From the IMG/VR virus record IMGVR_UViG_3300017762_000008, positions 1 to 52,896 of that record: 52,896 nucleotides of DNA. One strand, given 5' to 3'. The notes under the pieces are model-generated. The model made no database searches and was not told the DNA's origin. It saw only the letters and a program-made list of their open reading frames with translations. Position numbers and translations under genes: made by a program. Source of the stretch: a virus. Shown here in pieces: positions 16,732 to 49,143 of this stretch. The first letter of the stretch is position 1. Each line of letters begins with the position of its first letter.

Positions 16732-17325
16732 ATGACTACCACACCGGTTACCCTCTTATCCAAACGTTCTGGTAATGCTTCCGACCGTCCTTTAGTTACG
16801 ACGGTCCAAGCAGGTGAACTAGCTATAAACTTTGCTGCTGCCGAAAATGGTCTTTATTTCAAAGATTCTTTAGGTGATATTCGCAAGGTCACTGGGGTTC
16901 ATTACGGTAGTGCTGCCCCTAATAGTTCTGCCGCTGGTGAGACTGGTAATTCTGTAGGGGAGCTCTGGCTTGAAGATGGGACTAATAACTTTCTAAGAGT
17001 GTGGGACGGATCTACATTTATAAAGATCGGTGCTGCTTTTGCTGACGTTGCAGGGACTGCCACGGTATCTATCGCTTCAGGAGCGATTTTTGCTAACAGT
17101 GCTTTAGTAGCTTCTGGATCGTTTGGATCGATAACCGCTTCTGGAGCTTTAGGAACTCCAATTGCCTCAGGGTCTCTTGGGTCTGTCCTTGCTTCGGGCG
17201 TAGGTATTGCTCTGATTAGTGGTGCTTTCCCCGCAGTACCTCCCTCAGGAAGTTTTGGGTACAGAGTCGATCCGCCAAGCGGTTTGTACGTCTCTTTCGG
17301 CGGAGGATGGGTTCCAGCTGCTTAA
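16732..17325 (+). CDS. Short tail-fibre-like protein
   Basis: A 197-residue protein. The N-terminal part (LLSKRSGNASDRPLVTTVQA, then FKDSLGDIRKV) and ELWLEDGTNNFLRVWDGSTF resemble phage fibre/hyaluronidase-like attachment domains, followed by short SG repeats (VASGSFGSITASGALGTPI). The same W-x-D-G-S element recurs in the fibre protein at 24496. It follows the gene at 15162 by one base. Probable role: host-contact fibre or adaptor. Confidence 0.6.
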   Translation: MTTTPVTLLSKRSGNASDRPLVTTVQAGELAINFAAAENGLYFKDSLGDIRKVTGVHYGSAAPNSSAAGETGNSVGELWLEDGTNNFLRVWDGSTFIKIGAAFADVAGTATVSIASGAIFANSALVASGSFGSITASGALGTPIASGSLGSVLASGVGIALISGAFPAVPPSGSFGYRVDPPSGLYVSFGGGWVPAA

Positions 17326-17855
17326 CGAAGGCACGCCTTCATTTTTCCGGCTGCGTCGAAAAGATTACCAACAATTTCTGCGACACAAACTTCGATGTCG
17401 GGAGCGCCTACTTCTCTGGCAGTGTCATAAAGATCTTTGCCTTTAAAACCGCAGTCCTCAAGATTTCGAATGTATGTAACCATGCTCTCGCGAGCATCGT
17501 AGGATTTTGTAGTCTTAAAACTCTTGTAGGAACCCATGAGTCCTTTTTGACACATCGGCATCAAGTAGTCCATGCTTCGAACTTTTTCTGCAATTCGATT
17601 GAAATCACATAAATGTTGTTTGTACTCTTCTTTTAAAAATTCACTGACAGTCAGGTGATTGGCACCTTCAATATTTAGTGAAATCAAGTTTGCTTGAATA
17701 TTTAAGTGATAAAGATAAGAAGCCATTTCAACCATCCGATAAATCAGATTGTCTACGTTGGCTTCTTTCTTTACGACGATCTCCTCTACTACAACTTCCT
17801 CCGTGGGAGCGGTTAGAGCTTCTTGGAAAACTTGTTGCAGATTAGAGGAAGTCAT
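17322..17855 (-). CDS. Dps/ferritin-like protein
   Basis: A 177-residue, all-helical protein. After an acidic N-terminal extension, the order of helices with a short IEGANHLTVSEFLKEEY loop and DFNRIAEKVRSM resembles Dps mini-ferritins, where His, Asp and Glu in HWN...D..AER bind iron at the subunit interface. The usual first His is not evident (SLNIEG), so ferroxidase activity is doubtful. The fold assignment is tentative. In a phage it could bind DNA or limit oxidative damage. It lies downstream of the HTH gene in the same reverse pair. Confidence 0.45.
   Translation of the reverse strand: MTSSNLQQVFQEALTAPTEEVVVEEIVVKKEANVDNLIYRMVEMASYLYHLNIQANLISLNIEGANHLTVSEFLKEEYKQHLCDFNRIAEKVRSMDYLMPMCQKGLMGSYKSFKTTKSYDARESMVTYIRNLEDCGFKGKDLYDTAREVGAPDIEVCVAEIVGNLFDAAGKMKACLR
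17327..17346 (+). terminator. Weak terminator at the end of the forward virion operon
   Basis: GAAGG-CACG-CCTTC then ATTTTT, directly after the stop of the gene at 16732 and inside the 3' end of the convergent reverse gene. The stem is only five to six pairs. Confidence 0.45.
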
Positions 17856-18600: not shown

Positions 18601-18828
18601 ATGAACGGCTCTGAGCATGTCAACGTTAGTCTCACACTGGAAGATGAGTTCACCCTTACTCGTATTAAAAATGCCGCCTATGACCTTAAAGGAAGAGACA
18701 GAGAGCAGTATCTCTGGAATCGAATTGTCAGATTAGTCTGCCGAGAAAGAGCTTTTAAATTTATTGTCGACGAACTTGGTGTGGTTGTTGACCCTAATAT
18801 AAGTGTGTTCGAAGAAATAGAAGATTGA
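18601..18828 (+). CDS. Hypothetical charged protein
   Basis: A 75-residue acidic/basic helical protein (YDLKGRDREQYLWNRIVRLV). Its stop overlaps the TTG start of the lysozyme-like gene (TTGA), so the two are probably translationally coupled. No family was recognised. Confidence 0.55.
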   Translation: MNGSEHVNVSLTLEDEFTLTRIKNAAYDLKGRDREQYLWNRIVRLVCRERAFKFIVDELGVVVDPNISVFEEIED

Positions 18829-26976: not shown

Positions 26977-28488
26977 ATGGTAGTCCGCAGGCCGGTAGTT
27001 TTAGTTAGCGGTGCTCTCGCCGAGCTACCTTTTGGTGACAGTATTATCACCTCTGCTTCTGGCGGTCTTCTTACCGCAGGCAGTGGTTTAGTAGGTGGCG
27101 GTAATACAGATTCCACTATTCGTTTAGATGTAGCTTTTACAGCTCAACCAAGTGGTCTTATTTATGTAGGAAACGAGATTTCCGTCGATGGTGTTGCGCT
27201 TAAACGTTCTACAGACGCATTGGCCTCAGGCAATGCTGCTTTATTAGATTCTACGAATGCATTAGCCTCCGGAAATGCAGCTTTATCTAATGCAGCCGTA
27301 GCTTTATCTTCTGGTAATGCTGGTCTAACAGAGGCTGCTATTGCGATTGCCTCTGGAAATGCAGCTTTAGAAGTTGCTGAGACAGCACTAAGTTCTGGTA
27401 ATTCTTCTCTTCAGCTTGGCGAATACGCACTTGCTTCAGGAAATGCTGCCTTAGCAGACGCTGCTACTTCTCTTGCTTCTGGTAACGCGGCACTGCTTTT
27501 ATCTGAAGAAGCACTTGCTTCAGGTAACGCAGCATTAATCACCAACGTTCGTGCGCTTGCCTCAGGTAATGCAGCCCTGGAAGACGCTAGTACAGCGTTG
27601 GCCTCTGGAAACGCAGGTCTTGCAGATGCTGTGGCAGCCGTTGTCTCTGGCAACGCATCGCTGACAGTTTCTGTCTCAGCTTTAGCTTCTGGTAATGCCG
27701 CATTAACAGATTCTGAGCAAGCTTTATCTTCTGGTATTGCTGCCGTTTCCCTAGCAAATTCAGCTCTTGCCTCTGGTAATGCGGGCTTAGCTGATTCTGC
27801 TGTTGCTCTTGCTTCAGGAAATGCTGCCCTCGTCGACTCCGCTGTCGCTCTTGCTTCAGGCAATGCAGCAGTCGTTCTTTCAAACACAGCTTTAGCTTCT
27901 GGTCAGGCTTCTCTAAACCTGGCAAACGTCGCACTTGCGTCGGGTAATGCAGCTGTAGCTGTAGCTGAATCCGCTGCTGTATCTGGTAACGCGTCGATCA
28001 GTGTTTCTTTAAACGCACTTGCCTCTGGTAATGCTGGTCTGGCTGTAGCAGTACAAGCACAAGCTTCTGGTAATGCTGCTCTCGAAGATCTAGCAGGAGC
28101 TGCTGCTTCCGGTAACGCAGGTATCGCTCTTGCACTTGCAGCTCAAGCTTCCGGCAATGCAGCAATTTCAGACGGGATCGTTGCTTTAGCTTCCGGTAAC
28201 GCTGGTTTAGTTCTTGCTGCTGCCGCTGCTGCATCTGGTAACGCCGCAATCAGCGATTCAGCTATTGCTCAAGCTTCTGGCAACGCTGCCCTTGTGGTAG
28301 CTAATACTTCTCTAGCTTCAGGTAACGCAGCATTATCAGTTTCTAGTACTGCACTAGCTTCTGGTAATGCTGGTTTGGTAATCGTGCCTGTAGCTCAAGC
28401 TTCTGGCAATGCCGCTCTCGCAGCTTACGCGGCGAACCCAGGCTTAAGTCAGGGCGCTGCAATCGGCTTAATTATCGCGCTTTCGTAA
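26977..28488 (+). CDS. Fibre protein with 29 perfect-register 14-residue repeats, copy 1
   Basis: A 503-residue protein in three parts. Residues 1-80 are a beta-rich head (TAGSGLVGGGNTDSTIRLDV, then PSGLIYVGNEISVDGVAL). Residues 81-486 are exactly 29 uninterrupted repeats of 14 residues, consensus ALASGNAALxxxxx. Residues 487-503 are NPGLSQGAAIGLIIALS. The repeats probably form a long trimeric stalk (coiled coil or beta-spiral; not decidable here). The tail is shared with the genes at 24496 and 28490. It is one base from its paralogue at 28490. Likely role: a long, length-fixed fibre shaft. Confidence 0.75.
   Translation: MVVRRPVVLVSGALAELPFGDSIITSASGGLLTAGSGLVGGGNTDSTIRLDVAFTAQPSGLIYVGNEISVDGVALKRSTDALASGNAALLDSTNALASGNAALSNAAVALSSGNAGLTEAAIAIASGNAALEVAETALSSGNSSLQLGEYALASGNAALADAATSLASGNAALLLSEEALASGNAALITNVRALASGNAALEDASTALASGNAGLADAVAAVVSGNASLTVSVSALASGNAALTDSEQALSSGIAAVSLANSALASGNAGLADSAVALASGNAALVDSAVALASGNAAVVLSNTALASGQASLNLANVALASGNAAVAVAESAAVSGNASISVSLNALASGNAGLAVAVQAQASGNAALEDLAGAAASGNAGIALALAAQASGNAAISDGIVALASGNAGLVLAAAAAASGNAAISDSAIAQASGNAALVVANTSLASGNAALSVSSTALASGNAGLVIVPVAQASGNAALAAYAANPGLSQGAAIGLIIALS
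27217..28434 (+). repeat. 29 x 42-base coding repeats
   Basis: Tandem units coding ALASGNAALxxxxx. The first nine positions are conserved, the last five variable; the third codon positions vary, so the repeats are old and kept by protein selection. No unit is missing or partial. Confidence 0.85.
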
Positions 28489-32784: not shown

Positions 32785-33426
32785 TTACCTAAGCCATGTA
32801 ACAAGAGCATATCGTGTGCCTTTAGTTACTGGTAATGCTTGATGAGGGTACATCCAGTTAGATGGAAAAAATATTCCAGTTCCTTTTTTTTGCTCAATTT
32901 TTACTGAATTATTAAAAAAAGATAAACCACCATCTTCAAAATCATCGTTAAGTTGTACTGAGCAGCTCACTTTTCTATTTATTCCTTCTAATTCTGTGCC
33001 TTTGTTGTCGTTAGCATATAACTCATCTATATGCTCCTTAAAAACACAGCCTTCGGAGTATTTAAGTATTGAATAACCCTCGTCGTATGTAAATTGTAAG
33101 TGTAGATATTGATCAACATATTTATGAGCACCATGTGTAATTTGTTCAAATATTTTATTATCCATACTTTTTATTTTTTGAGAAAGGGGTAAATTAGATA
33201 ACCAAATTTCTTCACTTGTTCTTACATCTTCTACAACAACGTCGCTAGATACATAATCAACTTCGTTATATTTTTCAGGATTTATTTTTGGGTGGTTTAC
33301 TCCGGATCGCACCCATGAATCTCCGTAATCTGTTTCTAAAGTTTCAATAATTTCGTCACATAAATCTTCTGAAAATAAACCGTGTTGAATATTTATAAAT
33401 TCTTGTAAATTTTTATCACTGTACAT
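32785..33426 (-). CDS. 2OG-Fe(II) oxygenase
   Basis: A 213-residue prolyl-hydroxylase-type dioxygenase. Iron ligands are H132 and D134 (EHID) and H195 (PHQALPV); the 2-oxoglutarate-binding Arg is likely R205 (KGTRYALVTW). Such enzymes hydroxylate proteins or nucleic acids and are common in cyanophages. It sits directly against the fibre genes, which makes a fibre protein a plausible substrate (inference). Confidence 0.8.
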   Translation of the reverse strand: MYSDKNLQEFINIQHGLFSEDLCDEIIETLETDYGDSWVRSGVNHPKINPEKYNEVDYVSSDVVVEDVRTSEEIWLSNLPLSQKIKSMDNKIFEQITHGAHKYVDQYLHLQFTYDEGYSILKYSEGCVFKEHIDELYANDNKGTELEGINRKVSCSVQLNDDFEDGGLSFFNNSVKIEQKKGTGIFFPSNWMYPHQALPVTKGTRYALVTWLR

Positions 33427-33492: not shown

Positions 33493-34065
33493 ATGCAACA
33501 GACTAAACCATATGAGTATATGCTTGTTGAGGACTTTTTTACTCAAGAAGAACTAAGCGTTGTCTGGGATGATTTAGCGATTACATTTGCTCGATCTTTG
33601 TGGCAACCACGGTCCTTAGGACAGAATGAACCTAGCATGGTCTCTAGGTCTGGTTTATTTCTTGATAAAGAAAACAATCATTTACTGCAGGGTGTTACTA
33701 AATCAGTAGACAAATTATTTGACGGTTACACCAGCACATTTGCTGAAATGTGTTTCGCTAACTATCCGGTTATTAACACTAATCGTCACTCTATGTTATG
33801 TAGTCTTTATACAAATACTGGATTCTACAAAAAACACAGAGATACTTCGGTTACGTCTGCTTTGATTTGGTTATGTAAAGAACCTAAATCTTTTACAGGC
33901 GGTGATTTAATTCTTCATGATTTAGACGAAACAATACCCTTCAAAAATAACACAATGATAATGTTTCCAAGTCAGGCGTTTCACGAAGTAACTCCTGTAG
34001 TAATGGACGAGTCTTTAAGTGCAATAGAAGGAAGAATTTGCTTATCTATATTTATGTCTAATTAA
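33493..34065 (+). CDS. 2OG-Fe(II) oxygenase
   Basis: A 190-residue dioxygenase: H115 and D117 (KKHRD), the strand TGGDLILHDL, H164 (QAFHEVTP), R181 (EGRICLSIF). It diverges from the oxygenase at 32785 across a 66-base AT-rich gap that contains TTTACA and TACTAT elements but no clear promoter. Substrate unknown. Confidence 0.8.
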   Translation: MQQTKPYEYMLVEDFFTQEELSVVWDDLAITFARSLWQPRSLGQNEPSMVSRSGLFLDKENNHLLQGVTKSVDKLFDGYTSTFAEMCFANYPVINTNRHSMLCSLYTNTGFYKKHRDTSVTSALIWLCKEPKSFTGGDLILHDLDETIPFKNNTMIMFPSQAFHEVTPVVMDESLSAIEGRICLSIFMSN

Positions 34066-42381: not shown

Positions 42382-42937
42382 TTGGTTCTTTCCAGGGATT
42401 TTCCATTGGAGGGTTAGCAGCTTGGCGAACAGCTGCAGCCTGGGCTAGCTGAGCAGTCCTGAGTGCTTGTCGATGTTGCTCAAGTTGCTGGTTAAGTGAC
42501 GCAGTTTGTTGAGAAGCCCAGTTCTGCGCGTTGGCTGAAAGTTCGTCCAGTGCGTTTGCACTGTGGGGGAAATTAAATACAGCACCTACTCCCTCATTGT
42601 TATTAATTTTAGTTGCCCCCGTGGTTTCGGCGAGCGCAGATAAAAATCCGTAAGCTTGATCCACACCGACGTTGGCTACGAAAGAGAGTTCGACAGGGTC
42701 TACTAAACCGCGACTGCGTTCGTAAAGCGCACTGAACGCACCACTAACTCGGTGAGCAGTGTCAGAACCTTCACGCTCTTGTCTGACTTTTTTATCAGAA
42801 ATTGAGATACCGGCAAGAGTACCTCCGATAAACGCCAAAGGTGCTCCTACAAATTCGGGACTGGTGATTGCTGTTGTGACTGCAGCAACGCCTCCGATGA
42901 AGATGGTCAGTGGAAAGGATTTAAGTTGCAGCATCAT
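42374..42937 (-). CDS. Membrane-anchored hypothetical protein
   Basis: A 187-residue protein read from the ATG at 42937 (overlapping the helicase stop by 17 bases; an ORF extension to 43018 exists). Two hydrophobic segments near the N-terminus (FIGGVAAVTTAITSPEFVGA, PLAFIGGTLAGISI) and a Gln/Ala-rich C-terminal coiled stretch (SLNQQLEQHRQALRTAQLAQ). No family was recognised. Confidence 0.5.
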   Translation of the reverse strand: MMLQLKSFPLTIFIGGVAAVTTAITSPEFVGAPLAFIGGTLAGISISDKKVRQEREGSDTAHRVSGAFSALYERSRGLVDPVELSFVANVGVDQAYGFLSALAETTGATKINNNEGVGAVFNFPHSANALDELSANAQNWASQQTASLNQQLEQHRQALRTAQLAQAAAVRQAANPPMENPWKEPSD

Positions 42938-45677
42938 GTTTTTGGAAATTAGACTCCCATTTGGAAAAGTCCGGTAGTTGGGCGAACTCAACAGGATTTG
43001 GTAAGCGAGTGTCACCATGGGAGGCGCGATCCGATGTTAGATCAAAAGGCTTGAGGCGTATACCTTTGATTGCAGGTAACCCTGTTTTAGTTACTGTCCT
43101 GCAACCAGGGAGCTTAAGTATGTTGGACAATGTTTCCATTGTGCGTTCAACAAACCGTGGCTTAGCTGATGGCTTGTAGCCACATGCTTTACAGAAGTTA
43201 GCGTAACTTGCGTAGAGTTCGCTATATGCATTTTTTACAAACATGCCTTTCTCTGACTCGTCTGTACTTGGTCTGGCGGCTCCTCGGCCAACCACTGTCG
43301 AACTATTTGGCGCGTAGAGACAGCACTCAGCCATCCAAGCTACATACTGATTATTGAATACCAAAGCGTCGATGTTGGTTTGCGCTAGTGATGGAGCATG
43401 CTTTACAGGGTTGGCTAGAACGTCACGCATGTCGTCAAAAGACATGGATAGTGCCCAGCTGACAATGCCAGGCAGTTCTTCTACAAAGTCACCTTCGAGG
43501 CGGTCTCCGTAAACACTCAAAAGTTCACGACGTTGACTAGGAGGGACGACTTGATCCATGACGATTGTCAACCGTCTACGTTCGAGACCACTCGTAGAAT
43601 CATTCGAGCTGATGTGCTCGTTACTTGCGATACAAACAAGACACTCAGGTTTAAAGCTGATAATTTCTTTTCCATATTTTCGTTCAGCTCTCAGCGTGTC
43701 AGACGCAGAAGTCAGTTTTTTAAGCACGTCCATGCGCTTGTTGTAATTTGATTCATCAGTCAAAAGCAACAAACGTTTACCTATAAGGTTGTATGTCTCG
43801 AATTTATTAGCTTCAATAAGTTCCAAACTTGATGTGTGGGTACTGTTAAAACCAGCAAGAGCAATCATCAACTGTTGCATGGTGGATTTACCTGTGCCAC
43901 CAGGTCCAACCAAGTGCAAAAATCTTTCACCAGAGGTGTACCCAGTGAGGAGCGCTCTTGAATAAGCCTGAATTAAAGTCGCTTGTCCTTTTCGGAGTGA
44001 GCTATCTAACCAGGCTAAAAATTTAGGACATTTTTTTTCTTTATCCCAGTTGTAAAGAAGACGACTACGGAAATAAAGTTCTTTGTTTTGTCCAGGATGG
44101 AATTCAAATGTGGTGCTGTCCAAGGCACCATTCTGAAAAGGTATATAACCTCTTCCCATACTGAAAATGCTGACCCTTCCTCCATTCAAAGACTTCAGCA
44201 TCTTTGCTTGAAGCATGGAGTAAACACTGTTAACAGTAGACGACTGATATTTTGGAAGAACACCAGCAGTGACGAAGGTATCTAGGGCGTTTACAATTCT
44301 CTTTTTGACGTGCATTTCATCTTGTACGTACCATATGCCTAGGTCGTTATCATACGTATAAAAATTATCGTGCGTACTATCGTATAAGTAGTTATCTCCT
44401 TGATTTGTTGCAATGATCTCTGCAACGTCGTTTTCTGCGAAGGCTCTGTTTTGTTGCTGTACGTTCTGAAGATTTACCAGCTGAGCCGGTGTTTGTGGGA
44501 CAGACATGTTTTCTTCCGGTGTTTTTGTTGATGTTGTTGTGTTGGGCTTTTCGTTTATCGAAAAGTCGTCAAAGGTAAGAATTGAGTTGACAGCCTTGGG
44601 CTTGACTTGCTTAATGGCTTCCTTAATCTCGTCTGTCGCGACACTGTCGTAAACATCTTTATTGACTGATCGAAGACGTTTCCAAGCTGCGATCTCGTCG
44701 TGCTCTGACGCCATAACGATTGCTGGCCTGATTGACTCGACGTCGCGAATGCTTTCAACTATTCGAGTAAACTTCCCATCTACCTCCGCAGGGTACGCAT
44801 ATACAGCATAGAACGCACGATGTGCGTATGTCAAGGGTGACACCTGAGTAGGTATCCCCTGGTCTCTAAGCCAATTTGTCCATCCAATGATTTCCTTGAC
44901 TGCTCTGGTTACAGCAAGGCTTCTGTCGTCTACAGGCTTCCCTTCCAGAATGTCCACCACAGATCTGGAGAGGAGACGCTGAAAGTCAACACCCTCATCG
45001 TCAACAGCGATATTCTCAAGCGCTTCCGTGACGTCGAATCTATTTCCTTTTTCTTCCTTAGGTAATGAATGATAAATTTTTAGAGCTTCATCAATTTTTT
45101 CAGTCGGAATAAACTTTTCGGAAACTTCGAGTATGCCGCCTTGTGACCAAGCCCCATAGAAAAGGTTTGGAACCTGCGTGGCTCTAATGTCGGACCCAGG
45201 TATATCTTTTGCAATTGCACGTGTAAACCATTGATAAAACTCTCCGTCAATAATCGGTTTTTCTAGACCAAAGACCAGTCGAAACCTAGGCCACGACTCA
45301 GATGTAGAGGGAGAGTCGTAAGCTAATGAGAGATATTTTTTACAAATATCTAGCTCTTTTGCTTCTTCCCAAGTCAGTTCTTGCTTTTGTATTTTGTTTC
45401 CATTTTGGTCTTTTCCATCAGCTTGATTATCTATATCAATAATGATCAGACCGGCTTGAATAAGTCCAGTACCGTCTTTTATTCTTTTACCTTCGACTAA
45501 ATGCCAGGCACATAAACCTTTACTTTGACCAACTTCGTGTGAAATTTCTTCAGAAGTATATGTACAAGGACGCCAGTTATTATTAAAAGTACGAAAGTCA
45601 CCACCTTGCTCAATCTTGCCCGTAACAGCATCGAGCGCACTGACTACTTTGCTGTTTACTGAGCAAATGAAATGCAT
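42921..45677 (-). CDS. AEP primase-SF3 helicase (D5-type)
   Basis: A 918-residue replication protein. The N-terminal archaeo-eukaryotic primase-like domain has LIIIDIDNQ with D81 and D83 (metal-binding) and WPRFRLVFGLEKP at 129-141. The C-terminal superfamily 3 helicase domain has Walker A GPGGTGKS (591-598), Walker B-like LLLLTDESNY, and SFKPECLVCIASNEHISSND as sensor/motif C. It unwinds and primes phage DNA. It is the central gene of the reverse replication operon. Confidence 0.85.
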   Translation of the reverse strand: MHFICSVNSKVVSALDAVTGKIEQGGDFRTFNNNWRPCTYTSEEISHEVGQSKGLCAWHLVEGKRIKDGTGLIQAGLIIIDIDNQADGKDQNGNKIQKQELTWEEAKELDICKKYLSLAYDSPSTSESWPRFRLVFGLEKPIIDGEFYQWFTRAIAKDIPGSDIRATQVPNLFYGAWSQGGILEVSEKFIPTEKIDEALKIYHSLPKEEKGNRFDVTEALENIAVDDEGVDFQRLLSRSVVDILEGKPVDDRSLAVTRAVKEIIGWTNWLRDQGIPTQVSPLTYAHRAFYAVYAYPAEVDGKFTRIVESIRDVESIRPAIVMASEHDEIAAWKRLRSVNKDVYDSVATDEIKEAIKQVKPKAVNSILTFDDFSINEKPNTTTSTKTPEENMSVPQTPAQLVNLQNVQQQNRAFAENDVAEIIATNQGDNYLYDSTHDNFYTYDNDLGIWYVQDEMHVKKRIVNALDTFVTAGVLPKYQSSTVNSVYSMLQAKMLKSLNGGRVSIFSMGRGYIPFQNGALDSTTFEFHPGQNKELYFRSRLLYNWDKEKKCPKFLAWLDSSLRKGQATLIQAYSRALLTGYTSGERFLHLVGPGGTGKSTMQQLMIALAGFNSTHTSSLELIEANKFETYNLIGKRLLLLTDESNYNKRMDVLKKLTSASDTLRAERKYGKEIISFKPECLVCIASNEHISSNDSTSGLERRRLTIVMDQVVPPSQRRELLSVYGDRLEGDFVEELPGIVSWALSMSFDDMRDVLANPVKHAPSLAQTNIDALVFNNQYVAWMAECCLYAPNSSTVVGRGAARPSTDESEKGMFVKNAYSELYASYANFCKACGYKPSAKPRFVERTMETLSNILKLPGCRTVTKTGLPAIKGIRLKPFDLTSDRASHGDTRLPNPVEFAQLPDFSKWESNFQKHDAAT

Positions 45678-45742: not shown

Positions 45743-46531
45743 TTAAGACTGTGTAGCCTTCGGGCGGACCTCAGTAAAAAATTTATTTACTAGTTCCAAC
45801 CACGCAGCTTCATCTTTTTCAACCTCTGTTTCACCGAAAGTGAATACTTGAGTTTGATACTCGTCGAAAGGAGTAGAAACGATGATCTGCGTTTTACTAA
45901 TCTTAATTCCTAAGCACGACTCAGCCGCAAGTTTGTAAGCAGCTAGTTGAAGCCTCGTCTTTTTAACCTTAAAAACTCCTGAGATCATTGCTTTTTTAGT
46001 TTTTTCATCCAAGTTATGTTTCTTAGTGGGGAATCGAGCGCTGTATGGACCAGCACTAGTTTTAAAATCTGCAAGAATTATTTCGGCGTTGTGGTCCATA
46101 TAGATCAAATCACAGCAACCTGCGTACCCATGACCTGAGTTTTCGTCGTAGTAAAAGATTCTTCCTACACCGTCATCCCCTACATACTTTGACCACTTGG
46201 GTTGATTAAAGGGTCTTTCAGACCAGAGCACTCGACCACCGTCGAGAAGTTCATCGATCCTTTCAGGCACTCCTACCCAGTAAGGAGCGTAGTTTTTGGG
46301 AGGTACAACCCTTAGACCTCGTATGTAATTTTCACTAGCTTCGTGTATCCAAGTTCCTCTCGCAGCAGCTGCGTCTGCTACTCCTGGATTCATCACGTTC
46401 CAGTGAGCTAGTTTCTGCTGAGTTTTAGCGGTCGCAGTGCTACTAAGAATCGAAGTGACAGATGGCAGGTACTCAGGTACACCAGGGCACTGATAATGCC
46501 TTAAGCCATTGATAGTTTTCCTAGTATCCAA
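45743..46531 (-). CDS. PD-(D/E)XK nuclease
   Basis: A 262-residue protein of the RecB/Cas4-like nuclease family. GCCDLIYMDHNAEIILADFK carries D...(D/E)xK: Asp in CCDLIYM and ADFK. The downstream TKKAMISGVFKVKKTRLQLA and YKLAAESCL supply the family Q/Y motif. It starts with TTG, with AAAGG upstream. Likely an exonuclease in phage recombination/replication. Confidence 0.7.
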   Translation of the reverse strand: MDTRKTINGLRHYQCPGVPEYLPSVTSILSSTATAKTQQKLAHWNVMNPGVADAAAARGTWIHEASENYIRGLRVVPPKNYAPYWVGVPERIDELLDGGRVLWSERPFNQPKWSKYVGDDGVGRIFYYDENSGHGYAGCCDLIYMDHNAEIILADFKTSAGPYSARFPTKKHNLDEKTKKAMISGVFKVKKTRLQLAAYKLAAESCLGIKISKTQIIVSTPFDEYQTQVFTFGETEVEKDEAAWLELVNKFFTEVRPKATQS

Positions 46532-46552: not shown

Positions 46553-46864
46553 TTAAAACGGTTCTAAATCGGCGTCTGAACTTGAAGGGCTTTCTGGCTC
46601 ATCGTCTATAAAAAATTCGCTCTTCTGATATTCAAAATCACGATTCCGCTGATCTAACTCGCTCAATAGGCAGCGTCCCGCTGAGAACGAATCAGCGATT
46701 AGTTCAGCAATCTCGTCAGCTTCCCTTCCTTGCCCTGTGTGGTCGACACACTCTTGCAAAAGTTGGTTGCTCACTAAGATTGAGGTGATTGTGTCCAGCT
46801 TCTTGTTGGTTTCTTGCTGGGTTTCAATCCATTGAGATAGTAAGAGTTGAAGTCGTCCTTTCAC
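46553..46864 (-). CDS. Hypothetical helical protein
   Basis: A 103-residue protein starting with GTG. Helical, with a coiled-coil-like start (LLSQWIETQQETNKKLDTIT) and a strongly acidic end (DEPESPSSSDADLEPF). The acidic tail recalls SSB-type protein-interaction tails; otherwise unrecognised. It sits between the nuclease and the methylase-like gene. Confidence 0.45.
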   Translation of the reverse strand: MKGRLQLLLSQWIETQQETNKKLDTITSILVSNQLLQECVDHTGQGREADEIAELIADSFSAGRCLLSELDQRNRDFEYQKSEFFIDDEPESPSSSDADLEPF

Positions 46865-46866
46865 TT

Positions 46867-47391
46867 TTATGAAAATGACTTTGGTCGCTGCCAGCTTACA
46901 TCGAAATCAATTTTTGTCTCTTTATTTCTCGGTTTAGCTTTATTAAACACATACCACGCAGATGTTACTGAGTCTTTTGTATTTCTCTGATCCGCACGGA
47001 ATACCGGACGAGGGTTTAAAACAATAATATTGGATAAAGGTTTTGACTTTAAGAAATCAGCTCGACCTCTCGTAGGTTCTAAAAAGGTCAGACGATCGAG
47101 AATTATTAGTCCTTTTTTAGCTAGCTCAAAGCCCGGTTCGATAATCCAGTCGAGTTCCTGCTTTCCTTGTGTTATCGCTACTGTCCAGTCAAAAGCTGGC
47201 AAGCTCTTCCACCACTGCAATTCAAGGTAAGAAATATCATCAGGCGCACTGATGCAGTCTGTGTAACCCCATGAAATCAGTTGAGTCTTAAGTTCTCCTG
47301 CATTATCGCTTGGTAGGACTACTCGACCAGGGCATAGCTTTCTTTCTGCAATAGGATTGAAAATATTGTTTGGGACTTGGTAGAACGACAT
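46867..47391 (-). CDS. Methyltransferase-like protein lacking the catalytic motif
   Basis: A 174-residue protein resembling the core of phage N6-adenine methylases: DRLTFLEPTRGRADFLKSKP, then SNIIVLNPRPVFRAD and TSAWYVFNKA. In active relatives a TNPPF/Y motif precedes the helix; here the matching place reads TQGKQELDWIIEPGFELAKK, and the SAM-binding loop is replaced by PSDNAG. Activity is therefore unlikely as read. Start codon ATG; it faces the divergent nblA-like gene. Confidence 0.5.
   Translation of the reverse strand: MSFYQVPNNIFNPIAERKLCPGRVVLPSDNAGELKTQLISWGYTDCISAPDDISYLELQWWKSLPAFDWTVAITQGKQELDWIIEPGFELAKKGLIILDRLTFLEPTRGRADFLKSKPLSNIIVLNPRPVFRADQRNTKDSVTSAWYVFNKAKPRNKETKIDFDVSWQRPKSFS
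47359..47388 (+). promoter_or_regulatory. Possible promoter for the nblA-like gene
   Basis: TTGAAA (47359-47364), an 18-base spacer, TAGAAC (47383-47388). Predicted start of transcription is near 47395, downstream of the ATG at 47390, which supports the ATG at 47435 as the start. The -10 is only four of six matches. Confidence 0.35.
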
Positions 47392-47434
47392 GGAGTCAGA
47401 ATCAGAAAAGCTTGTAGGACGTTTGAGGGATTAC

Positions 47435-47635
47435 ATGACGATGGAGCAAGAGTTCTACCATCTTCATTTCATGAGTCGAGCTAAAGAAGTAGACAGCGTT
47501 CCTGAGTTAATTGAGATCTTAGATCTTTTACACGCAAACTACCTTGTACAAAAACGTTTATTCTCACAACTTTGTTTATCTGTAGCAGAGTCTGGAGCTG
47601 AGCTCCCTCCACTGAAGTCCCTACTGAAGCCATGA
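47435..47635 (+). CDS. nblA: NblA-like phycobilisome degradation adaptor
   Basis: A 66-residue protein. The start MTMEQEFYHLHFMSRAKEVD then an LIEILDLLHANYLVQKRLFS helix fits NblA (PF04485): EQEF opens helix 1, a hinge follows, and LxxLxxxYxxxxxLF lies in helix 2. NblA recruits the Clp protease to phycobilisomes; phage copies are known. An upstream ATG at 47390 would give 81 residues, but GAGGG lies five bases before 47435 and the length then fits the family. It is the only forward gene in the reverse replication block. The assignment comes from reading the pattern by eye, without a database search. Confidence 0.7.
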   Translation: MTMEQEFYHLHFMSRAKEVDSVPELIEILDLLHANYLVQKRLFSQLCLSVAESGAELPPLKSLLKP

Positions 47636-47636
47636 A

Positions 47637-47658
47637 AAAAGGTCGCCGAAGCGACCCT
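47637..47658 (-). terminator. Strong hairpin terminator between the nblA-like gene and the reverse gene at 47686
   Basis: On the reverse strand, GGGTCGC-TTCG-GCGACC followed by TTTTTTC, a textbook intrinsic terminator for the reverse operon coming from 48492. The forward strand has AAAAAA before and only CCCTTGTT after, so it may act weakly for the nblA-like gene too. Confidence 0.85.
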
Positions 47659-47685
47659 TGTTGAATAAACCTGAATGGATTTGAC

Positions 47686-48492
47686 TTAGACAGATAAGCC
47701 AGCAGCTTCAAGAGCTTCCTTTTGTTCCTTTGTCAGTTCTTTAGTTTCTGACTTAGGTTCCGGAGGTGCACCTTTAGGGTTGCCAGCACCAGCAGGCAGA
47801 GACGCCAACCCTTCTGACTTAGGCGCTTCAATTTGTGGATGAGCTTCATTGAATGCTTCCTTAATTTCAGTGTGGTCTTTTCCGAGAGGTAGCTCGACCA
47901 GATTCGCACCGGAGATATGAGCACGAAGTGCAGAAGATACCAGCTCTCCTCCATCGCCATTGAGCCACTCATCAATATCTTTGACGAGAGATTTTTCTTC
48001 GTCGTTACCAACCGGTCGATCTGCGAATTCCAGAACGTTGTAATTAACTTTACCAGTGTCTGCACCCGTCACCGGATCAGTCTGAGTAAAGCTTTTCTGG
48101 ACAAACTTAGTCTTTGTAATAACTTCCGCAACGTTGATGCGGTTGTTATAAAGAGTCTGAAAGTAAGAAATAAAATTCTTCTGACTGCTTTTGCCAGAAA
48201 TAATAGCGGTAGCGACGCAACGAGAAGGAAGTAAACGATGCGTAGGGTCCACACCCACGAAAGCGATACGGATGAATTCTTGATGACTCCGCATTCCAAG
48301 GTTCCCATAGAAGGGACTAAAGCCGAGCAGTACAAATGAGATAGGGATCCCGTTGTCATTCGAGTCGGTAATTGCTTGATCCGGATCTGTGTCCGATTTC
48401 CAACGGCGCTGTTGGAGATCAATGCGAAGAGTGTGCGGTGGTACTTGGCAGAGAATTTCATCTGCTGCAAATTTGCCTGCAATGTAAGTCAT
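47686..48492 (-). CDS. Hypothetical replication-module protein
   Basis: A 268-residue protein with no recognised family. The N-terminal half is mixed alpha/beta (FAADEILCQVPPHTLRIDLQ, SHQEFIRIAFVGVDPTHRLL); the C-terminal 60 residues are Pro/Glu/Lys-rich and end in KELTKEQKEALEAAGLSV. Its neighbours are SSB-like and polymerase genes. A DNA-binding or recombination role is inferred only. Confidence 0.5.
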   Translation of the reverse strand: MTYIAGKFAADEILCQVPPHTLRIDLQQRRWKSDTDPDQAITDSNDNGIPISFVLLGFSPFYGNLGMRSHQEFIRIAFVGVDPTHRLLPSRCVATAIISGKSSQKNFISYFQTLYNNRINVAEVITKTKFVQKSFTQTDPVTGADTGKVNYNVLEFADRPVGNDEEKSLVKDIDEWLNGDGGELVSSALRAHISGANLVELPLGKDHTEIKEAFNEAHPQIEAPKSEGLASLPAGAGNPKGAPPEPKSETKELTKEQKEALEAAGLSV

Positions 48493-48495
48493 AGA

Positions 48496-49143
48496 TCAGA
48501 GAGAAAAGTTAATTGAACCAATAGCCGCTGCAGAGACTTGTCCTTTTTCAGGGTCAGCTGCTTTTTTAGGCGCGGACTTCGTGCCTTTAGGTAGGTACAG
48601 GATTTGATCTACTGCGTAGTTCAGATACTGCTTGTCATCCTTTTCGCTTGTGCTCACTCGACCAACTGCGATCGTTGGAGTTCCATTAGGAAGTTCGGAA
48701 AGCTGCTTCGAATGTTCGTTCCATGCGGTGAGCTTGAACCAGTTTGTCTCTTGGTCGTCTGGTGCCTGCCAAGCAATAGACCGATTTGTGACAGTTGAGT
48801 CACCGACTTCATTTTCTTCAGACTTAGGTCCTAACCCGCCACACGCCATGAAAGTGTTGATGGCAAGGATGTCGGAAAAGTTATCCCGTGAGACAACCAG
48901 CATTGGCTGCATCTGTAGAACACCATCCGGCGTGGCCTTAGTCGGTCCAATGGCTAGGACTTCTTGAGATTCTTTTAGATCCAGAAGAAGTTTTCCGACA
49001 TAGTGATCAGCTTTTTGAATCAGCTGAACCTTTGTGGAGATACGTTTTGCAGATGAAGGAAGAGATTCAGCAATCACATTGACTTTTCCGTCTTCAGTGC
49101 TTGCCTCGTCTGTAATCCTGACTCCCATCAGAAATACGTTCAT
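48496..49143 (-). CDS. SSB-like single-strand DNA-binding protein
   Basis: A 215-residue protein. The C-terminal half (NWFKLTAWNEHSKQLSELPN, then GTPTIAVGRVSTSEKDDKQY and LNYAVDQILYLP) matches the second part of an OB-fold SSB (WFRVVAW...GxxVxVEGRL...). The N-terminal half may hold another OB-like part. It lacks the usual acidic DDDIPF tail. Likely protects phage ssDNA. Confidence 0.55.
   Translation of the reverse strand: MNVFLMGVRITDEASTEDGKVNVIAESLPSSAKRISTKVQLIQKADHYVGKLLLDLKESQEVLAIGPTKATPDGVLQMQPMLVVSRDNFSDILAINTFMACGGLGPKSEENEVGDSTVTNRSIAWQAPDDQETNWFKLTAWNEHSKQLSELPNGTPTIAVGRVSTSEKDDKQYLNYAVDQILYLPKGTKSAPKKAADPEKGQVSAAAIGSINFSL

Follow-up and report, generated by a model that had tools for sequence, protein, structure and literature searches.

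The question raised by this locus is whether a short forward reading frame, set among the leftward genes of a viral replication region, encodes a relative of NblA, the bacterial adaptor that directs light-harvesting antennas to destruction, and whether it belongs to that region or reached it as a late addition. We analyzed the whole stretch of DNA in which the frame lies (52,896 nucleotides, positions 1 to 52,896 of IMG/VR virus record IMGVR_UViG_3300017762_000008; hereafter the window), and the coordinates of the features discussed are given in table 1.

Table 1. Positions in the window of the NblA-like gene, its surroundings, and a second candidate frame.
Feature	Position	Strand	Remarks
NblA-like gene	47390..47635	+	81 aa; NblA-homologous core approximately residues 16-64
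CATG start overlap	47389..47392		Start codons of the NblA-like (+) and divergent (-) genes head to head, 2 bp
Divergent neighbor	46867..47391	-	174 aa; partly DNA-methyltransferase-like (phrog_799, E 3.3e-8)
Intrinsic-terminator-like hairpin	47635..47656	-	Stem GGTCGC/GCGACC 47641-47656; minus-strand T6 47640-47635
Right-hand neighbor	47686..48492	-	268 aa, conserved; function unknown
Conserved protein	46553..46864	-	103 aa; function unknown
Exonuclease	45743..46531	-	phrog_298, E 4.8e-27
Primase/helicase	42921..45677	-	D5_N, DUF5906
SSB-like protein	48496..49143	-	Pfam SSB 21.9 bits, below the cut-off of 26
Second, weaker NblA-like ORF	18601..18828	+	75 aa; LTLEDEF motif; structural module

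The forward frame is a real gene, because it has relatives in other viral contigs and is under purifying selection at the codon level. The initial scan of viral contigs found 28 relatives, to which a profile scan added five (33 in all), and the final total was 48 viral contigs beside the window. Among these 49 loci, the window, L001, and L002 encode one and the same protein, and the L001 contig is a near-identical copy of the entire window, so that these three are not independent. In a codon comparison of seven representatives third-position change dominates, with a dN/dS of 0.06-0.23 in 13 of 21 pairs and a saturated dS in the other 8. Three alignments of the family were used: A1 (15 of 28 loci) and A2 (20 of 33 loci), the loci left out of both being mostly identical copies and the truncated L028, and A4, with 24 distinct proteins of more than 70 aa out of the 49 loci. 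A tblastn search of the phage collection returned no match for the window protein, L272, or L211, and a pattern scan of genome contigs with A1 confirmed 0 of 60 candidate stretches; the 5 weak matches found with A2 in 299 genomes (order of G191) were chance-like once the frames were read.

The frame had been described as a 66-residue ORF starting at 47435 with the layout of NblA, and the EQEF...LVQKRLF arrangement is indeed there. The start has to be moved to the ATG at 47390, which is the better choice since it is retained in 46 of the 49 loci (window included; the remaining three are truncated) and since Met16, the methionine at 47435, is replaced by Leu in the orthologs L272, L273, and L279. 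The protein thereby has about 15 additional N-terminal residues, and it ends in a conserved G-x-x-LP tail. It had also been called the only forward gene between 42,018 and 52,896: between thyX and the end of the window it is the only one for which conservation was shown, but 11 further forward ORFs of 60 aa or more are listed in the same stretch. The minus-strand ORF overlapping it (47481-47711) is not open over its full length in the 6 relatives checked (of 48).

Relationship to NblA is not apparent from the window protein itself. A search against PF04485, in which a missing hit had been proposed as grounds for giving up the NblA assignment, returned 0 families for it; no NblA match was found in Pfam, NCBIfam, or PDB sequences either, and its PHROG matches, phrog_35328 (E 0.0076, 66-aa form) and phrog_9050 (0.2), are both unannotated. 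The syntenic ortholog L272 reaches 29.7 bits against PF04485 (E 9e-7), above the curated cut-off of 25 bits; it is one of several divergent orthologs at the same locus whose contigs had been retrieved with another gene. L273 (23.9 bits), L271 (21.5), and L045 (20.3) all lie below the cut-off. At E ≤ 0.1, PF04485 is found by 15 of the 24 distinct members (best E 3.7e-7), nine members including the window protein being without a match, and the next-commonest Pfam families are found by three members each. Reversed controls never match NblA (0 of 8), with 3 of 8 weakly matching some other family.

Profile comparisons were made against a reference set in which 115 NblA domain hits were reduced to 18 at <85% identity and joined by 4 seed sequences and L174 (23 in total, some near-duplicates remaining, frames of at least 150 aa excluded); the canonical set is these 23 minus L173, L174, and L177. 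The first profile, built from close relatives, aligned to canonical NblA over 12 columns, where 52 of 200 shuffles scored as high, and with three divergent NblA rows added to the canonical ones it reached 63% over 48 columns (0 of 200 shuffles). With the enriched family (25 rows), HHalign gave 95% over 48 columns against canonical plus bridge NblA (E 2.8e-8, 0 of 100 shuffles), 91% against the bridge family only (0 of 100 column shuffles as high); with canonical NblA only, the result was 17.6% across 47 columns (0 of 100 shuffles). Family profiles searched against the sequences of solved structures found no NblA. The bridge family comprises 12 other viral loci (L202-L213) with kin in two cyanobacterial genomes (G292, G203), and its member L173 scores 29.2 bits against PF04485, above the cut-off. 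In a tree built from 52 rows and 58 columns, a guide only given so few columns, the members of the NblA-like family group as a single clade (94/81) that joins with the bridge family (98/93) among the NblA rows. The L272 score above the cut-off, the 15 of 24 members against none of the reversed controls, and the 48-column profile match together support the NblA assignment as one of distant homology.

Two observations concern NblA-like frames elsewhere. The divergent NblA family of L202-L213, L173, and L177, which two cyanobacterial genomes share with viral contigs, occurs in contigs as long as 75 kb. A further NblA-like frame, L174 (G191:C1:541152-541292; LSLESNFEL...), scores 22.7 bits, just under the Pfam cut-off, and lies in a 2.4-Mb cyanobacterial genome.

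The AlphaFold model of the monomer is a two-helix hairpin (helices 4-33 and 37-67, pLDDT 82), as the NblA reading had led one to expect. Foldseek gave no significant match in PDB or BFVD, with no NblA structure listed, and VIA-align, with 88 chains compared, listed generic helical hairpins only and no NblA; since so simple a fold does not discriminate, this absence is uninformative. The same model matches many unrelated structures, such as Tsi2 immunity proteins at a Z of about 7, as would be anticipated if the protein were an unrelated small helical one, for instance one that regulates the divergent methyltransferase-like gene or partners it in the manner of an antitoxin, with a convergent likeness to NblA; the head-to-head overlap with that neighbor would likewise suit a divergent regulator. 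We consider such an origin improbable in view of the Pfam matches, which favor NblA over any other family, of the lack of NblA matches among the reversed controls, and of profile scores that beat 100 of 100 shuffles.

Thirteen positions are invariant in the 24 members: E19, F22, H24, E42, I43, H48, N50, L52, F58, L61, G69, L72, and P73. Two of them, E19 and F22, lie in the N-terminal motif, of which Q20 and E21 are kept in at least 90% of members; in NblA this motif is the ClpC side, according to the part of PMC4103541 available to us. The canonical FxLR is FYHL in the window copy. At the end of helix 2, in the C-terminal phycobiliprotein-binding region, L61 is invariant and a basic residue is missing from the window copy: the position following the helix is Lys in the seed NblAs and Leu63 in the window, with many relatives having Lys or Arg and others Gln, Leu, Ala, or Glu. 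The EQEF-type first motif is retained, and the phycobiliprotein-side second motif is uncertain.

The surroundings of the gene are conserved. In 38 of 38 loci checked (33 of 33 contigs and 5 of 5 divergent ones) it stands between the minus-strand methyltransferase-like gene and the minus-strand 268-aa gene; the 33 were recovered by the NblA-like gene itself and therefore cannot show its absence elsewhere. The match of the divergent neighbor to phrog_799 covers only positions 300-376 of the 458 in the profile. Counting the window, 46 of the 49 loci share the CATG overlap, and the divergent frame is 174 residues or longer in every one of these; the three that remain are truncated. The promoters of the two genes would sit within each other's coding sequence. 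An own promoter upstream of the gene had been suggested; there is no 5' intergenic space, and a simple promoter scan found no forward site, its single site being on the minus strand (1 against a shuffle mean of 1.3).

The strong hairpin described after the gene is real (47641-47656, missed by a simple terminator scan), but its T-run is on the minus strand and just past the 268-aa gene, which makes it a terminator-like element of the opposite strand. A hairpin 3' of the stop codon with a minus-strand T-run recurs in 46 of the 49 loci, its stem varying in sequence and keeping its pairing; the loci where none was found are L279, L280, and the truncated L281. Most likely it ends the leftward operon before an antisense run through the NblA-like gene.

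These features show the gene to be a fixed resident of its locus and speak against its description as a moron, that is, as recently inserted and independently expressed cargo, an origin which would in itself be compatible with an NblA function. Its strand, opposite to that of its neighbors, and the lack of a match to it in Synechococcus phage S-EIV1 could be taken as marks of such cargo. Both neighbors are nevertheless kept in all loci checked, the start bases are shared, there is no intergenic space on the 5' side, and the hairpin belongs to the other strand; in S-EIV1, moreover, the genes on either side (46553-46864, 46867-47391, and 47686-48492) are also without a match at E ≤ 1e-4, so that it is not an empty site. 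We regard a recent insertion as very improbable. A lone forward gene in the S-EIV1 replication region (27768-27986) was considered as a positional counterpart and was listed by 0 of 4 profiles.

Seven of 24 records searched carry the NblA-like gene, namely six contigs of more than 60 kb with a structural-module gene and one shorter contig. All 6 contigs of more than 60 kb recovered by the structural-module gene have it (G001 and G003 were previously known); it was not found in 13 structural-module contigs of 20 to 58 kb, which may be fragments, in S-EIV1, or in three bridge-family contigs. The two genes occur together in seven contigs other than the window, among which G001 is nearly identical to it.

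By protein comparison the window virus is a relative of S-EIV1: this phage is the sole match of the portal among phage records (43%), and identity to it is 68% for the capsid protein, 51% for the terminase, and 42% for ThyX. The S-EIV1 record names Synechococcus sp. PCCC-A2c as host. A host with phycobilisomes, which the preliminary description took as a necessity, is plausible because this nearest isolate infects Synechococcus, but an nblA-like gene does not strictly imply it: S-SCSM1 is a phage with such a gene, and its hosts include Prochlorococcus as well as Synechococcus according to the available part of PMC9602691. The capsid protein was found in 0 of 299 genomes (order of G191), in a search that had no positive control; ptoX (PF01786) in 0 of 20 records and in none of the control genomes either, so that the count shows nothing; and hli (PF00504) in 1 of 20, S-EIV1 itself, in a frame with stops.

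Elsewhere in the window, 17325-17855 (-) encodes a 41% homolog of an S-EIV1 protein annotated as DNA-binding ferritin-like, and 32785-33426 (-) and 33493-34065 (+) are adjacent 2OG-Fe(II) oxygenase genes on opposite strands. A 503-aa late gene contains internal repeats of ~65% identity at 27223-28415, revealed by matches to a close relative that are out of register.

What, then, would the protein do? We put at roughly 70% the probability that it is a divergent NblA-like, phycobilisome-directed protease adaptor. Made during infection by this S-EIV1-related cyanophage, from a promoter probably lying within the divergent gene, it would fold as a two-helix hairpin and, by analogy with NblA, dimerize, hold the host chaperone ClpC by its N-terminal EQEF-type motif, and hold phycobiliprotein by the end of helix 2. 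Phycobilisomes would thus be delivered to the Clp protease, and breaking down the antennas would free amino acids and reduce the absorption of light. The protein would accordingly be predicted to have bleaching activity like that of its namesake, and the virus may strip the light-harvesting antennas of its host during infection.

The adaptor of phycobilisomes is judged the most likely reading and a repurposed adaptor the next. The latter, to our minds unlikely, would be an NblA-derived protein that binds ClpC through the EQEF-type motif and either delivers another host target or acts as an anti-adaptor, sparing the phycobilisomes. It would account for the residues that are invariant in the 24 members and unlike canonical NblA, and for the basic residue missing from the end of helix 2 in the window copy. 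Against it, the alignment to the NblA core takes in both helices and spans 47-48 columns, and nblA genes found in marine viral metagenomes reportedly caused phycobilin loss in S. elongatus (PMC9602691, citing Nadel 2019, in the part available).

The second frame in table 1 may be another NblA relative, a lead on which the main claim does not depend. Its family (Family B; alignment A3, 20 of 35 loci) has 35 viral relatives, the first being a contig near-identical to the window. No Pfam match was found for the window copy; 6 of 7 relatives scanned weakly match NblA, all below the cut-off (best 18.9 bits, E 0.0021). HHalign against canonical NblA gave a probability of 8%, with 0 of 100 shuffles as high, and in the comparison with the bridge family 5 of 100 shuffles scored equally well. 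Helices are predicted at 13-26 and 31-59 (pLDDT 70), and tblastn found no match in the phage collection. In roughly the same region S-EIV1 encodes AHV82245.1, a hypothetical protein of 106 residues (L220:23902-24219, S-EIV1 73902-74222), which scores 16.3 bits against NblA and does not match the profile of the second family. That the products of 47390-47635 and 18601-18828 cooperate in dismantling the phycobilisome during infection, as a heterodimer or at two stages, is conceivable and, in our estimate, doubtful.

Phage nblA genes are known already, marine phages included (PMC9602691, in the part available), so the window gene is a divergent variant. As far as the available text of PMC5332604, PMC9239245, PMC9229316, and PMC9382816 goes, none of them credits the S-EIV1 lineage with nblA, and an earlier mention in the original S-EIV1 paper or in Nadel 2019 is possible. 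In the Nishimura survey of marine viral genomes the S-EIV1 group (G238) makes up 3.3% of cyanophage content, and Table 2 of the survey lists hli and ptoX, and not nblA, for the environmental genomes of the group (PMC5332604, available part). What this locus adds is an NblA-like gene resident in an S-EIV1-like lineage and missed by standard family searches. If the protein is active, this lineage would dismantle antennas as a permanent trait and not through a gene acquired now and then, and Pfam-level annotation would undercount phage NblA. The start-overlapping divergent pair with its guarding terminator also offers a clean case of an opposite-strand gene that stays expressible within a replication region.

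Compared with cyanobacterial NblA (PF04485; PDB 1OJH, 2Q8V, 2QDO, 3CS5), the phage family shares E-Q-[EQ]-F at the start of the core, the two helices, and 47-48 collinear columns; it differs in having about 17% identity over the core, N- and C-terminal extensions, and invariant residues of its own (H24, H48, N50, GxxLP). The bridge family, its sister group in the tree, is closer (27% identity over 48 columns), but shorter (about 57-66 aa), and none of the 15 window proteins tried had a match nearby in any of its 12 loci. Nadel 2019 reportedly dealt with NblA-like proteins of an uncultured marine phage lineage. That lineage and the other marine cyanophage carriers (S-SCSM1, S-TIM5, and cyanopodoviruses) belong to other phage lineages than the window virus. 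The nblA of S-SCSM1 was predicted by HHpred (PMC9602691, available part), and the PF04485 search misses NblA in the S-SCSM1 and S-TIM5 records too, a point of likeness to the window; S-SCSM1 ORF237 differs in its 54 aa and in its family, phrog_27081. The nblA of the freshwater phage Ma-LMM01 resembles the window gene in encoding a small NblA, in lying in a nucleotide-metabolism region, and in overlapping a neighbor (nrdA), but its product is recognized by Pfam (52 bits) and the overlap with nrdA is on the same strand.
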